Shown here one piece after another: positions 41,154 to 44,899 of a stretch of DNA of 64,000 nucleotides. The stretch is from Asanoa ishikariensis (lineage in GTDB: Bacteria; Actinomycetota; Actinomycetes; Mycobacteriales; Micromonosporaceae). The notes under the pieces were generated by a model. That model ran no database searches, was not told the origin of the DNA, and worked only from the letters and a program-made list of their open reading frames with translations. The stretch's first letter is position 1, and every line of letters starts with the position of its first letter. Location of the stretch: the NCBI RefSeq assembly GCF_900107455.1, contig NZ_FNQB01000004.1, positions 692,193-756,192 of the forward strand, given 5' to 3'. A program made the translations under genes and the position numbers.

Positions 41154-41765
41154 TTAATCCAGGGCGGCGAGCAGCGCGTCGAGGCGGTCGGTGTCCAACC
41201 AACCGTTGACCGCGACGGTGCCGGACCGGTCGACGTCGACCTGGAGCCGGTCGACCGCGCCCTCCCGCCAGTGGACGAGGTCGGGGAAGCGGTCGCCGAG
41301 CACCACGAACTCCTGGTTGGTCGAGCCGGCCCATGGCCGCTCGTGGTCGATCCGGTCCCGCTGGAACGGACCCGCGATCAACAGGTCGGTGGCCGCGAGC
41401 AGACCCGCGACACCGGGCCGGCCGGCCGCAGCGGCCCGGCGCAGCGACGCGTGCGTGTAGCCGGAGAAGGTCAGCACCGAGCGGCCGCCGGCGCGCACCT
41501 GACTGGCCACCGCGGCCAGCCCCTCGGCCTGGTCGAACGGCTCGCCGCCGAGCAGAGTCAGGCCGCCGGACGGCTCGGAGAGGACCCGGGCCGCCAGCTC
41601 CGCGGGCGACCAGGGGACCCCGCCCTCGACCGCGAACAGGTGCGGGTTGAAGCAGCCGGCGCAGCGGATCGTGCAGCCCTGCACCCAGACGGCGGTACGC
41701 ACGCCCGGCCCCTCGGCGGTGGTGGTGCCGAGGTAGCGGGCGACGGTGACCGCCGGCTCAGACAT
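41154..41765 (-). CDS. Radical-SAM, 4Fe-4S activase-like protein (short)
   Basis: 203 residues. WVQGCTIRCAGCFNP holds the C-x3-C-x2-C cluster motif; GGLTLLGGEPFDQAEGL is the SAM-binding GGE region; SGYTHASLRR matches the activating-enzyme family. It belongs with the NrdG/PflA-like short activases, but no anaerobic reductase gene is near. It starts eight bases inside the previous gene and is the last of the five-gene unit with the Ycf46-like ATPase. It may donate electrons or radicals to, or modify, a component of that system; this is inference. Confidence 0.82.
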   Translation of the reverse strand: MSEPAVTVARYLGTTTAEGPGVRTAVWVQGCTIRCAGCFNPHLFAVEGGVPWSPAELAARVLSEPSGGLTLLGGEPFDQAEGLAAVASQVRAGGRSVLTFSGYTHASLRRAAAAGRPGVAGLLAATDLLIAGPFQRDRIDHERPWAGSTNQEFVVLGDRFPDLVHWREGAVDRLQVDVDRSGTVAVNGWLDTDRLDALLAALD

Positions 41766-42579
41766 CGAGGATGCGACCCTGGTGGCCGCCCGGCCCGGGC
41801 GGCTGGGGTGGCGGCGGCTGCGGCGCGGAGACAGGAGCGGCGTACACCAGCGGCAGGATCCGGACGTACTCGTGCGGTTGCAGGCCTAGCGCGTCGCTGA
41901 ACGCGTGCACGTCGGGGAAGCCGCCGCGGCTCTCCCGCTCGGCGACCGCCCGCAGCGCCCGCCACTGGTCGAAGTGGGGAAGGGTCGCCAGTTGCGCGGC
42001 GCTGGCCGAGTTGACGTCGAGCGGCGTCGCCGGAACGGGGGGAGAGGTCGGCACGGGCATCGCGGCAGGCATGTGCGGCGGGGCCGGAACGGGCGCGTAT
42101 CCGAACGGCGCGGCCGGATGGCCGGGCGGGGCCGGGTGGCCGGCGGCGGCCGGGTAGCCGGGGCCGGATGGGTAGCCGGGCGTCGCGGGATAGCCGGGCG
42201 CGGCCGGGTAGCCGGGCGGCGGCGCCAGCGGTGTGGCGTGCCACGGCACGTAGGTGGCCTTGAACCGCAACCACGAAGGGTTGACGGAGAAGGCGTGCAG
42301 GATGACGACCAGCCAGGTCGCCAGCCACAGGCCGACCGCCCAGTTGCTGAGGGCCGTGTCCTGCTCAGACTCGCCGATCACGATGAACAATGCCGTCGAG
42401 ACCACGAAGTAGCCGATCCCCGCGATCCACAGGGACCGGCGTTTCATCCGGATCCCGAGAAAGATCAGGGCGCTGGAACCGAGGCAGCCAAAGCCCGCCA
42501 CCGGCAGTAGCAGCCAGAGACTGTGCAGCACCCGCCAGGACAGTTTGCGGGCCGGGCCAGGATCAAAGGCGGTCGACAT
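41758..42579 (-). CDS. Membrane protein with Pro/Gly/Tyr-rich linker and ComEA-type helix-hairpin-helix
   Basis: 273 residues from the ATG at 42579. Three N-terminal membrane segments (to about residue 90) are followed by a low-complexity linker of repeated PGYPA-like units (about 105-185) and a C-terminal helix-hairpin-helix (LDVNSASAAQLATLPHFDQW, then GGFPDVHAFSDALGL). It overlaps the DUF2997-like gene by 17 bases and the radical-SAM gene by eight. The cytoplasmic HhH could bind DNA or a partner at the membrane. No known function. Confidence 0.72.
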   Translation of the reverse strand: MSTAFDPGPARKLSWRVLHSLWLLLPVAGFGCLGSSALIFLGIRMKRRSLWIAGIGYFVVSTALFIVIGESEQDTALSNWAVGLWLATWLVVILHAFSVNPSWLRFKATYVPWHATPLAPPPGYPAAPGYPATPGYPSGPGYPAAAGHPAPPGHPAAPFGYAPVPAPPHMPAAMPVPTSPPVPATPLDVNSASAAQLATLPHFDQWRALRAVAERESRGGFPDVHAFSDALGLQPHEYVRILPLVYAAPVSAPQPPPPQPPGPGGHQGRILDV

Positions 42580-42781
42580 CGTGCACCGTTTCAGTGGTCT
42601 CGACCGTGGCGCGTGCCCGCGTGTAGTCGGCGGTGTGGGCGCTCGACACCGTGGTCGCGTCGAGCAGGTCTTCGAGCACGGCGATGTAGTCGAGGCAGTC
42701 GGTGCCGTGGATGCCATGCGTCTCGGCGGTGACCGTCCCGTCGGGAGCCACCACCACCGTGACCGTCTCGCGCGTGCTCAT
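42563..42781 (-). CDS. DUF2997-like small protein
   Basis: 72 residues. VTVVVAPDGTVTAETHG, then HGTDCLDYIAVLEDLLD, and a Thr/Ala-rich tail with ADYTRA match the DUF2997 family (beta strands, then a Cys-Leu-containing helix). No membrane segment or signal. Its start codon overlaps the stop of the DUF1257-like gene (ATGA), and its end overlaps the next gene by 17 bases. Small proteins of this family are encoded next to DUF1257 genes elsewhere; role unknown. Confidence 0.7.
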   Translation of the reverse strand: MSTRETVTVVVAPDGTVTAETHGIHGTDCLDYIAVLEDLLDATTVSSAHTADYTRARATVETTETVHDVDRL

Positions 42782-43239
42782 GCCCGCTCCCGCTGTTCGA
42801 CCGCGAAGACCAGCCGAACGGACGCGTCGTCCGTGACGGTCTCGGACGCCAGGCGCAGCCCGGCCGCGGGTGCCTGGGTGCGCAGCCGGTCGAGCACCGC
42901 CGCCTGCACCTGCCGGCCGTACGCGGCGTCGAGCCGTCGGACGATCTCGACCGCGCGGGTCTCGTCGACGTCACCGGCGAAATGCGCGGCCCAGATGCCC
43001 TCGGTGTCGCGGGTGAACCGGGCGGTAACGCCCTGCCACACCGCGTCGACCAGGTCGGTGCCGGTGGTGACGACGGCGCCGGTCTCGCGCAGCGCGGTGG
43101 ACAGCAGCGCGCTGTCGCGCATCCGGGTCGACACCGTGCAGACCAGGCCGCCGGACCCGCCCGACTGACCGGCGCTGCGGGCCTGGATGGCCGCCGCGGC
43201 GGCCAGTGCCGCCGGAATGAGGAGCAGGGAAACGCTCAT
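42778..43239 (-). CDS. DUF1257/Ycf35-like protein
   Basis: 153 residues from the ATG at 43239. A hydrophobic, possibly membrane-anchoring, N-terminus (SLLLIPAALAAAAAIQA) precedes a domain with STRMRDSALLSTALRETGAVV, GVTARFTRDTEGIWAAHFAG and DAAYGRQVQAAVLDRL. This order and the spaced motifs fit the DUF1257 family known as Ycf35 in plastids and cyanobacteria. It lies 28 bases downstream of the ATPase gene. The N-terminal segment is not part of the usual Ycf35. Confidence 0.68.
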   Translation of the reverse strand: MSVSLLLIPAALAAAAAIQARSAGQSGGSGGLVCTVSTRMRDSALLSTALRETGAVVTTGTDLVDAVWQGVTARFTRDTEGIWAAHFAGDVDETRAVEIVRRLDAAYGRQVQAAVLDRLRTQAPAAGLRLASETVTDDASVRLVFAVEQRERA

Positions 43240-43267
43240 CGCATCATCCAACCATCGGGGTCGTACA

Positions 43268-44899
43268 TCAGAACTCGACGGGCCGGCCGCCGTGCGAGCG
43301 GTGCGGACCGTCCGCCTCGGGCCGCGGCTGCGGCACGTCCAGATCCCAGTCCTCGGCGGCGGTCGCGGCGACCGCGCGGGCATCGGCCCACGCCCGGACG
43401 GCGGCGATCCGCTCGGCCTGGGTGCGGCTCAGCGGCACCATGTTGACCAGCGCCCGCACCACGTCGTCCTGGCGCAGGGGGCGCCGCTCGGCGAACGCGT
43501 CGTACACCGCGGCGACCAGTGCGTGCTCGATCTCGGCGCCGGAGTAGCCCTCGCTGAGCGAGGTCAACTCGGCCAGCACCGCGGCGTCGACGGTGAGGGC
43601 GCCACCGACTCGCGGGTTGCGCATCCACCGGGCGAGGTGGACCTGCCAGATCGAGCCGCGTTCCGCACGGGTCGGCAGGTCGACGAAGAACACCTCGTCG
43701 AAGCGGCCCTTGCGGAGCAACTCGGGCGGGAGGCTCTCGATCTCGTTTGCGGTCGCGATCACGAACACCGGCCGGCTCTTCTCCTGCAGCCAGGTCAGGA
43801 ACGACCCGAACACCCGCGACGAGGTGCCGGAGTCGCCGGCGCCGGTGGCGGCGAAGCCCTTCTCGATCTCGTCGATCCAGAGGACACACGGCGCGACCGC
43901 CTCGGCGGTGCGGATGGCGCTGCGCATGTTGTGCTCGCTCGACCCGACCAGGCCGGCGAAGACCCGGCCGATGTCGAGGCGGAGCAGCGGGATGCCCCAC
44001 GCGGCGGCGACCGCTTTGGCGGTCAGCGACTTGCCGCAGCCAGGGACACCGGTGATCAGCACGCCGCGCGGTGCCGGCAGGCCGTAGTCGGCGGCGTCCG
44101 CCAGCCACGCGCCCTCCCGACGGCCGAGCCAGCGTTTCAAGTTCTCGAGCCCGCCGATGTCGGACAGCCGCGGGCCGGTCTCGATGAACTCGAGCAGCCC
44201 CGCCTTGCGTACCGTCTGCCGCTTCTCCTCCAGGATCACCGGCAGGTCGGCGACGCTGATGACTCCGTCGTTGACCATCGCGCGGGCGAACGCGTTCTCC
44301 GCCTCGTGCAGTGTCAGCCCGAGCGCGGCCTTGGCGAACCGTTCGCGTCCGCTGTCGTCGAGGTCGATCCGAAGTCGCGGCGAGGCGGCGTTGGCCCGCA
44401 GCATCCCGTCGAGCACGCCGCGGATGTCGGTTTCGGACGGCAACGGAAAGTCGACGACGGTGACGTCCTTCTCGAGCTCGACCGGCACCCGGTTGACCGG
44501 TGAGACGAGCACGAGGCTACGCGGGACCGCACCGGCGCGGAACGCGGTCGCCAGATCGCGCATGCGGCGGATCACCGCCGGATCACCAGGCTGGCCGGTC
44601 GCGCCGAGCACAGGGTGCAGGTCGCGGAAGACCGCGACGATCGGCTCTTGCATCCGGAGCAGCGCGTCGAGCGCGTCGGCCGGGTCCTTTGTGCGGGCCT
44701 GCTCCTCGCCGTCGTCGCGCCGCAGCCCGTCGGTCAGCGACCAGGTCCACACCCTGCGCGGGGTGCGCACGAGTCCGGCGTCGCCGGCGACCGCGCGCAC
44801 CTCGAACAGCACCCGGAGCTCCTCGTGCGACTCGACCGCCATGATCGGGAATCGGGCCTTGAGGAGTTGGGCGAGGGTGGTGCGGAAGGACTCTGCCAC
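43268..44899 (-). CDS. AAA+ ATPase, Ycf46-like
   Basis: 543 residues. A degenerate N-terminal domain (1-190, with DPADALDALLRMQEPIVAVFRDLHPVLG and SPVNRVPVELEKDVTVVDFPLP) precedes an active AAA+ module: Walker A GVPGCGKS (284-291), Walker B VLWIDEIEKGF (about 339-349), sensor region ATANEIESLPPELLRKGRF with the arginine finger. This layout is that of the Ycf46 family of cyanobacteria and plastids, single-ring ATPases of the FtsH-like remodelling group. The GTG start lacks a clear ribosome site. First gene of the five-gene unit; the PQQ dehydrogenase gene is 45 bases upstream. Confidence 0.85.
   Translation of the reverse strand: MAESFRTTLAQLLKARFPIMAVESHEELRVLFEVRAVAGDAGLVRTPRRVWTWSLTDGLRRDDGEEQARTKDPADALDALLRMQEPIVAVFRDLHPVLGATGQPGDPAVIRRMRDLATAFRAGAVPRSLVLVSPVNRVPVELEKDVTVVDFPLPSETDIRGVLDGMLRANAASPRLRIDLDDSGRERFAKAALGLTLHEAENAFARAMVNDGVISVADLPVILEEKRQTVRKAGLLEFIETGPRLSDIGGLENLKRWLGRREGAWLADAADYGLPAPRGVLITGVPGCGKSLTAKAVAAAWGIPLLRLDIGRVFAGLVGSSEHNMRSAIRTAEAVAPCVLWIDEIEKGFAATGAGDSGTSSRVFGSFLTWLQEKSRPVFVIATANEIESLPPELLRKGRFDEVFFVDLPTRAERGSIWQVHLARWMRNPRVGGALTVDAAVLAELTSLSEGYSGAEIEHALVAAVYDAFAERRPLRQDDVVRALVNMVPLSRTQAERIAAVRAWADARAVAATAAEDWDLDVPQPRPEADGPHRSHGGRPVEF

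Follow-up and report, generated by a model that had tools for sequence, protein, structure and literature searches.

Five adjoining genes of Asanoa ishikariensis, carried within the 64,000 nucleotides of contig NZ_FNQB01000004.1 analysed here (positions 692,193 to 756,192; this whole stretch is called the window), encode an AAA+ ATPase, a DUF1257-like protein, a DUF2997 protein, a membrane protein with a helix-hairpin-helix (HhH) domain and a radical S-adenosylmethionine (radical-SAM) protein. The ATPase and the membrane/HhH protein end in a common C-terminal tail, R-x-[ILV]-[DE]-[hydrophobic]. The tail, absent from the original prediction, is the most informative feature of the unit; it hints at a way for the machine to recognize its target, and the system is one of many bacterial phyla. 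In the reading tentatively preferred here, at a probability of about 0.42, the unit would be a remodeller of the CDC48/Vps4 type, acting on membrane proteins that are recruited via the common tail; DUF1257-DUF2997 would serve as adaptor, the radical-SAM protein as modifier. Since both proteins carry the same tail, plausibly read by one common docking site, the ATPase would be directed to the membrane protein it partners, in this operon the transmembrane (TM)/HhH protein. The docking site may reside on the ATPase itself; alternatively, DUF1257-DUF2997 may provide it, acting as an adaptor. In the presumed order of events, ATP hydrolysis would pull on, or rearrange, the docked partner; the radical-SAM protein may modify a component, most plausibly around an invariant DUF2997 cysteine, and thus license the machine.

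The genes form a compact minus-strand unit (44899-41154), and the overlaps of 4, 17 and 8 bases and the 28-base gap originally described are exact. Genes and tails are the following.

43268..44899, minus strand: AAA+ ATPase of 543 residues, GTG start (PF00004)
43271..43285, minus strand: ATPase tail RPVEF (full end GGRPVEF), the genome having no other match to the E-form pattern
42778..43239, minus strand: DUF1257-like protein of 153 residues, separated by the 28-base gap from the ATPase gene (hhalign to PF06868-type proteins)
42563..42781, minus strand: DUF2997 protein of 72 residues, 4-base overlap with the DUF1257-like gene (PF11211)
41758..42579, minus strand: membrane/HhH protein of 273 residues, 17-base overlap with the DUF2997 gene (hydropathy and PF12836)
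41761..41775, minus strand: membrane/HhH tail RILDV (full end QGRILDV), with no second match to the D-form TGA pattern in the 9.09-Mb genome
41154..41765, minus strand: radical-SAM protein of 203 residues, PflA/NrdG-like, 8-base overlap with the membrane/HhH gene (PF13353)

All five genes are under constraint. The G+C content at third codon positions (0.89-0.95) corresponds to a coding composition, and, against two same-genus relatives, the mean change of codon positions 1 and 2 is slower than that of position 3 in each gene (ratio 0.17-0.69); in the same comparison the HhH protein is the fastest-changing of the five.

The tail was counted in a set made of the window plus 90 loci (91 in all, labelled L with a number), 80 of which come from one contig scan and are the best 80 of at least 545 confirmed. 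Many of the 91 are closely related, as those of Gastranaerophilales and of the window's genus, and locus counts are therefore not independent. Partner proteins were grouped by BLAST linkage of neighbours into a cluster of 62 proteins from 50 loci; the tail was no criterion, though it lies inside the aligned sequences. The ending R-x-[ILVMCA]-[DE]-[FYLIVMW] closes 60 of these 62 HhH proteins, the other two ending in RRVD and RMVDMQ; the arginine is found in all 62, the aspartate in 98%. The same ending, taken strictly, is present at 61 of the 91 ATPases. None of the 70 DUF1257 hits, 68 DUF2997 and 63 radical-SAM proteins of the 91 loci terminates in this way. The tail ends only 4 of the 719 other genes picked as neighbours, and 17 of 8021 other open reading frames (ORFs), the 4 included; by their look, 16 of the 17 encode partners within these loci, comprising HhH genes overlooked by the ORF picker, TM proteins, a TM-TPR protein and a TM-Mrr nuclease, and the remaining one is an ORF of 36 codons. 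The tail was noticed before being counted, so that the count is only partly independent; the genome scans came later. In the genome hosting the window, three DNA patterns (G-R-x-[LIVM]-[DE]-[FLIV]-stop forms) gave four matches, two of them in the genes for the HhH protein and the ATPase, the other two in frames of non-coding composition. Over 61 genomes the D-form pattern matched 12 times, in 5 HhH genes of the unit and in 7 frames unlike coding sequence. The patterns skip some codons of the motif, so other carriers could be missed; the HhH gene of the genome labelled G005, which ends in DRIVDV, was. The membrane/HhH component, originally taken as a novelty of this actinobacterium, exemplifies a rule, since a tailed partner longer than 100 residues occurs in 51 of the 55 loci holding DUF1257, DUF2997 and radical-SAM genes. 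If the tail may be followed by up to four more residues, it is found on the ATPase in 65 of the 72 loci that have DUF1257, DUF2997 or both. Of the 19 loci lacking both, 3 have such an ATPase; at least one of the 19 (L059) is cut by a contig end.

In favour of the recruitment reading stand the conserved linkage, the tail counts, the altered tails shared in two distant loci, the second motif of another ATPase clade, the confident one-chain fold of DUF1257 with DUF2997 and the alignment of the ATPase-containing model to p97. Several data weigh against it. On the ATPase tree only eight independent pairs fall on well-supported branches, and the sign test relating the tail to DUF1257/DUF2997 gives a median p of 0.25. 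The tree-corrected tests, both for DUF1257/DUF2997 and for the radical-SAM protein, mostly point in the same direction and are not significant; much of the contrast between loci may be shared history. When ATPase, DUF1257 and DUF2997 were modelled with AlphaFold2 as a single chain (predicted template modelling score, pTM, 0.50), the ATPase tail came out disordered, with a predicted local distance difference test (pLDDT) score of 41-44, and the joined model thus gives no support for docking in cis; docking of the tail was not seen in this chain. The ATPase of L028 lacks the tail though all other parts are present. In turn, a tailed partner is present in L019, L054 and L075, where the locus lacks DUF1257, DUF2997 and radical-SAM genes and the genome shows no DUF2997 at E<=0.001. 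The adaptor role is therefore not general, and the candidature of DUF1257/DUF2997 as the necessary reader of the tail is weakened. Outside the 91 loci, tails of the motif type are missing also from the ATPases of Rhizobium phage I4 (a neighbour ends in TRRAVKL), of Rhodobacter phage RcTiptonus (a neighbour ends in GRKITI), and of Geminocystis and Exiguobacterium plasmids. Finally, the target of the radical-SAM protein is inferred throughout.

The radical-SAM protein is the only match of its family at E<=0.001 in the genome. It carries a Fer4_12 domain (PF13353, 8.9e-28), falls among activase-like radical-SAM proteins, and has a CxxxCxxC motif whose cysteines (C31, C35, C38) are kept in 63 of 63 sequences. 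Fer4_12, CxxxCxxC and GPGxR are shared with pyruvate formate-lyase and NrdG activating enzymes. Unlike them, the window protein stays below the curated cut-offs (NrdG model 3.5e-23, 82.2 bits against 126.1), and is thus not assigned to the glycyl-radical activase equivalog; moreover, no glycyl-radical enzyme is found among the five operon proteins. One may imagine that the tail itself is the substrate, as in ribosomally made modified peptides, and that modified tails on ATPase and HhH protein represent an active or anchoring form. Such a scenario would account for the invariance of both the cysteine ligands and the tail arginine, for the near-invariance of the tail aspartate, and for the presence of a radical-SAM gene in 54 of the 59 loci with a tailed partner. 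It is nonetheless unlikely. Seven loci have a strict ATPase tail, DUF1257 and DUF2997, and no radical-SAM gene at the locus, the genomes not having been searched beyond it and one of the seven, L039, lying on a 6.9-kb contig. L019 has both tails and no radical-SAM gene nearby, the rest of its genome not having been searched for one, and the window protein has no auxiliary-cluster domain match in Pfam.

The AAA+ machine originally predicted is supported by the ATPase, which matches PF00004 at 9.5e-31, and the profiles of NVL, VCP-like ATPase and p97 at up to 2.4e-58. Read from the sequence, the N-terminal module (residues ~1-230) has no visible Walker A motif, and the second module is of the CDC48 type, with GVPGCGKS as Walker A and LWIDEIEK as Walker B. 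The enzyme is CDC48/Vps4-like, and probably made of one apparently inactive and one active AAA module. The joined AlphaFold2 chain, whose ATPase is a relative of that of the window, aligns to p97 over ~550 columns (E 1e-21, TM-score 0.40), which fits an arrangement where the N-terminal module is AAA-like and the active module comes second. AAA proteins encoded by cyanobacterial plasmids, no Ycf46 reference protein being among them, are ~33-43% identical to the ATPase over 86-90% of the query, and one further contig match has 43% identity.

The two small families fared differently. DUF2997 was correctly named (PF11211, 1.1e-15, 57.6 bits against a gathering cut-off of 24.1). Its Cys29 and Gly15 are invariant in 68 of 68 sequences, and the family is rare in the phylum, being found in 3 of 396 genomes, the host of the window included, 2 of them above the cut-off. 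The assignment to DUF1257 (PF06868) found no direct confirmation, since no match at E<0.1 was obtained in the Pfam scan, and stands through profile comparison. A profile of 11 actinobacterial sequences aligns by hhalign to that of eight PF06868-matching proteins with an E of 9e-5 and a probability of only 59%, and an iterated hidden Markov model (HMM) seeded with the window protein also gathers PF06868 members. The protein is plausibly a distant relative of PF06868/Ycf35, not a Pfam member. Its N-terminus, MSVSLLLIP, is hydrophobic and conserved. A search of PDB sequences with the DUF1257 profile gave no match. DUF1257 and DUF2997 of L047, modelled by AlphaFold2 as one chain, reached a pLDDT of 83.7 and a pTM of 0.73, both domains exceeding 90 over most of their length. 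Foldseek found for this model a single PDB match at E<=0.001, RnlA (5.5e-4, poor TM-score), followed by TBP-like and other weak matches; the order of strands and helices is TBP-like by eye, and no functional meaning is claimed for the resemblance. As side observations, the DUF1257 gene of L018 (7583-8046) is broken by a frame change, due to either sequencing error or decay, and DUF1257 proteins of Gastranaerophilales-type loci (L044, L048, L053, L057, L060 and L063) are ~420 residues long and, judged by eye in L044, seem to be made of repeats of the domain.

The membrane/HhH protein has three hydrophobic segments by hydropathy (21-43, 49-71, 76-94), a linker rich in proline, alanine and tyrosine, the HhH domain and the tail. 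The domain spans residues 184-242 (HHH_3, PF12836, 8.1e-7, 29.5 bits against a cut-off of 27). HHH_3 matches at E<=0.01 were found in 60 of the 62 clustered proteins, and, together with the TM segments, recall ComEA, and hence the idea, raised in the original prediction, of a DNA- or RNA-binding HhH domain that anchors nucleic acid at the membrane. The match and the TM segments support that idea; other observations are against it, and the tether is very improbable. In the clustered relatives, Pro-His mostly takes the place of the second glycine hairpin (71% and 82%); 31 of the 62 proteins also match T2SSK, the HhH of a secretion protein; and other partners have an Mrr domain or, by eye as in L054 and L077, no HhH at all. 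Not all HhH genes are in the cluster: those of L016, L017, L027, L028, L037, L040 and L045, and three in L065, are left out because overlooked by the ORF picker, and all of them are tail-ended. The partner is tailed and TM in L054, L075 and L077, and L046 has two tailed partners, a TM-TPR protein and a TM-Mrr nuclease. GYF_2 is matched by 3 of the 62 HhH proteins. The notion that the HhH domain is a constant part of the unit is weakened, some tailed partners having by eye TM segments only, or other domains. Single loci are worth describing. The Mrr-type restriction endonuclease domain of L046 resides in a membrane protein encoded inside the unit (L046:7809-8549), which ends in GRRLDV. L036:9660-10658 and L042:9653-10519 encode second partners with HhH, tail and a GYF-type domain, seen in Pfam for L042, by eye for L036. 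In a rumen bacterium (L065:1296-6338), seven HhH ORFs, one of 87 residues, all tail-ended, precede the radical-SAM and ATPase genes.

ATPase homologs are unevenly distributed. At E<=1e-40 they occur in 10 of 61 genomes, the host of the window included, and, apart from that host, in 3 of the 5 genomes sampled from the genus, 4 of 31 genomes from other genera of the family and 2 of 24 genomes from other families of the order. Five of the nine relatives carrying the ATPase keep the five-gene order (L014-L018); L019 has ATPase and HhH genes only, L020 and L021 no other part at the locus, L022 a different arrangement. Among the matches listed, the nearest named kin of the window are Dactylosporangium and Micromonospora, which makes an origin in Micromonosporaceae probable. 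By iterated HMM search, 68 of the 91 ATPase loci hold DUF2997, 69 hold DUF1257 and 63 a member of the radical-SAM family. The conserved neighbourhood originally expected is thus real, ATPase, DUF1257, DUF2997 and radical-SAM genes being linked in many phyla, with the order shuffled: gene order and position vary among loci, and in L099 the radical-SAM gene is on the opposite strand. The loci come from ~15 phyla, many from metagenome-assembled genomes (MAGs). Actinomycetota, Bacillota, Melainabacteria, Bacteroidota, Fusobacteriota, Armatimonadota, Planctomycetota, Spirochaetota, Omnitrophota, Myxococcota and Chloroflexota are represented, among others. As the same families recur around ATPase relatives in so many phyla, their grouping is more than chance. 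The unit had been presented as an actinobacterial peculiarity; that view is untenable, the same genes lying together in Bacillota, Melainabacteria, Bacteroidota, Fusobacteriota, Armatimonadota, Planctomycetota and others, and a system restricted to actinobacteria is ruled out. An archaeal MAG (Methanosphaera, L045:6094-8680) encodes a divergent ATPase and a divergent TM protein, both tailed.

Mobile DNA is a recurrent setting. All five genes reside on Rhodococcus and Paenarthrobacter plasmids typed as conjugative, where both ATPase and HhH protein are tailed; DUF1257 of both plasmids and the HhH protein of Paenarthrobacter are annotated as hypothetical and were named by eye. ATPase, DUF1257 and DUF2997 co-occur in Rhizobium phage I4, and in a Rhodobacter phage DUF2997 is the only part confirmed. 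In spirochaetes (L097, L100 and L113), radical-SAM and ATPase genes, along with DUF2997 in L097 and L100, lie among genes resembling those of phage tails and contractile injection systems; one baseplate protein was tested against Pfam, the others are so named by eye or from record annotation. Four proteobacterial plasmids (L115, L116, L117 and L118) carry cassettes encoding a helicase, a PIN protein, a DUF2997-like protein and an AAA protein, and terminated by a related radical-SAM gene. Testing one of each, the helicase is MkoA-like (1.6e-68) and the AAA protein of the ClpB type (AAA_2); the DUF2997-like segment, including a conserved cysteine, was recognized by eye. These cassettes are possibly an undescribed Mokosh variant. 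A related radical-SAM protein and a DUF2997-like segment beside an AAA protein liken them to the window unit, from which they differ for the AAA_2/ClpB-type ATPase, the helicase and PIN protein, and the lack of such a tail.

Alternatively, the unit might be mobile and serve defence or conflict, in which case the effector would be the tailed membrane protein, sensed and controlled by ATPase, DUF1257, DUF2997 and radical-SAM protein. The patchiness of the ATPase in genus and family, the conjugative plasmids, the ATPase relatives in phages and in a satellite phage, and the Mrr-type nuclease found as a tailed partner would all fit, as would the related radical-SAM genes ending the Mokosh-like cassettes, and the vicinity of another ATPase relative to an McrC gene, two genes apart. 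Yet four of the five window proteins match no PADLOC model, the ATPase resembles IetA in the AAA domain only (plus weaker AAA models), and no complete known anti-phage system was found by PADLOC; also, the immediate neighbours of the operon in the window are ordinary genes (AHSA1, sugar dehydrogenase, methyltransferase). A defence module is, on balance, rather doubtful, and the context speaks for an accessory unit that moves between genomes, without proving a role in defence.

The tail may change from lineage to lineage. The ATPase of the Streptococcus satellite phage Javan368 ends in TRKVLV and a neighbour in NRKIKI, an altered tail shared by the two. A looser resemblance is seen in a Paenibacillus polymyxa plasmid, where ATPase, DUF1257, DUF2997 and radical-SAM genes are accompanied by two genes for proteins with hydrophobic segments (by eye): the ATPase ends in YRRISH, neighbours in SRVIHF and KRVIRL. 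Two further ATPases conform to the motif, one from a Treponema plasmid (VRKLEM), the other from mycobacteriophage Firecracker (VRVLDL). In Firecracker (L123:2902-6649), the protein following the ATPase has GRAIDF close to its end, and RFSQLEH closes a small protein encoded further on. Of the 199 neighbour genes of a second ATPase clade, which has no HhH partners, 16 contain the motif RFxx[LI][ED]; in the other loci it is present in 1 of 520. In 14 of the 16 it lies at most 35 residues from an end, and the carriers are by eye zinc-ribbon, TPR and small proteins; as the motif was noticed in these loci before counting, the figure is descriptive, and no independent test. A broader formulation is possible, though we would hold it with reserve: a class of radical-SAM-coupled AAA+ systems spanning phyla may exist, in which the ATPase and its exchangeable membrane partners (HhH, GYF, TPR, Mrr nuclease) are marked by a common C-terminal code read by one receptor, R-x-h-[DE]-h or a lineage version of it, DUF1257-DUF2997 being the adaptor licensed by the radical-SAM protein, and Ycf46/Ycf35 of cyanobacteria and plastids a derived branch.

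What is known of Ycf46 and Ycf35 invites a further explanation. According to a passage of PMC4284462, cyanobacteria have a duf2997-ycf35-fed7 gene cluster; where that cluster has a ferredoxin the window has a radical-SAM protein, as originally proposed. A passage of PMC7496141, which cites other work, reports that the Synechocystis operon including Ycf46 responds to iron or sulphur shortage and oxidative stress, and that loss of Ycf46 lowers the activity of the carbonic anhydrase EcaB; marine and freshwater red-algal plastids differ in keeping ycf35 and ycf46, as stated in part of PMC5940233. The DUF2997 cysteine, which is invariant, and an Fe-S partner (radical-SAM protein here, ferredoxin in cyanobacteria) might accordingly sense iron or oxidants, and the ATPase remodel a membrane complex in a redox or Fe-S stress system. 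We regard this as improbable, since both cyanobacterial ATPases of L092 and L120 are tailless, and no sign of iron control is seen within the window. Under the recruitment reading, the family provides Ycf46 and Ycf35, kept in algal plastids and still lacking a mechanism as far as the literature searched shows, with a bacterial context, in which a partner, an enzyme and a recognition signal amenable to testing are present. If true, two DUF families would be placed in a defined machine, and the last residues would help to predict which proteins the related ATPases of phages and plasmids work with.

No account of the common tail or of the five-gene unit was found in the literature searched, the coverage of which leaves out most subscription papers. 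The Ycf46/Ycf35/DUF2997/ferredoxin 7 set of cyanobacteria and red-algal plastids has the same broad AAA+ type, both small families and an adjoining Fe-S protein. In the window unit, unlike that set, a radical-SAM protein replaces ferredoxin, a tailed TM/HhH protein and the common tail are present, and all five genes are in one operon. The AAA domain is related to those of IetA and SgiA in IetAS and SgiAT, the SgiA ATPase being described as of the SpoVK/Ycf46/Vps4 type in a passage of PMC10954446; the subtilisin-like protease of these systems is missing from the operon. The AAA core and, in the model, the two-module layout are common to p97/CDC48, from which the window ATPase differs because its first module has no visible Walker A, and no ubiquitin-type cofactor was seen. 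Vps4/CdvC acts with ESCRT-III, on membrane-bound partners with short C-terminal MIM motifs. The window ATPase is likewise a CDC48/Vps4-group AAA+ protein, plausibly working with a membrane-bound partner that has a short C-terminal motif. In contrast to Vps4/ESCRT, no MIT domain and no ESCRT-III match emerged from Pfam and curated-model scans of the five proteins, the window ATPase probably has two AAA-like modules, and the ATPase itself carries the motif.

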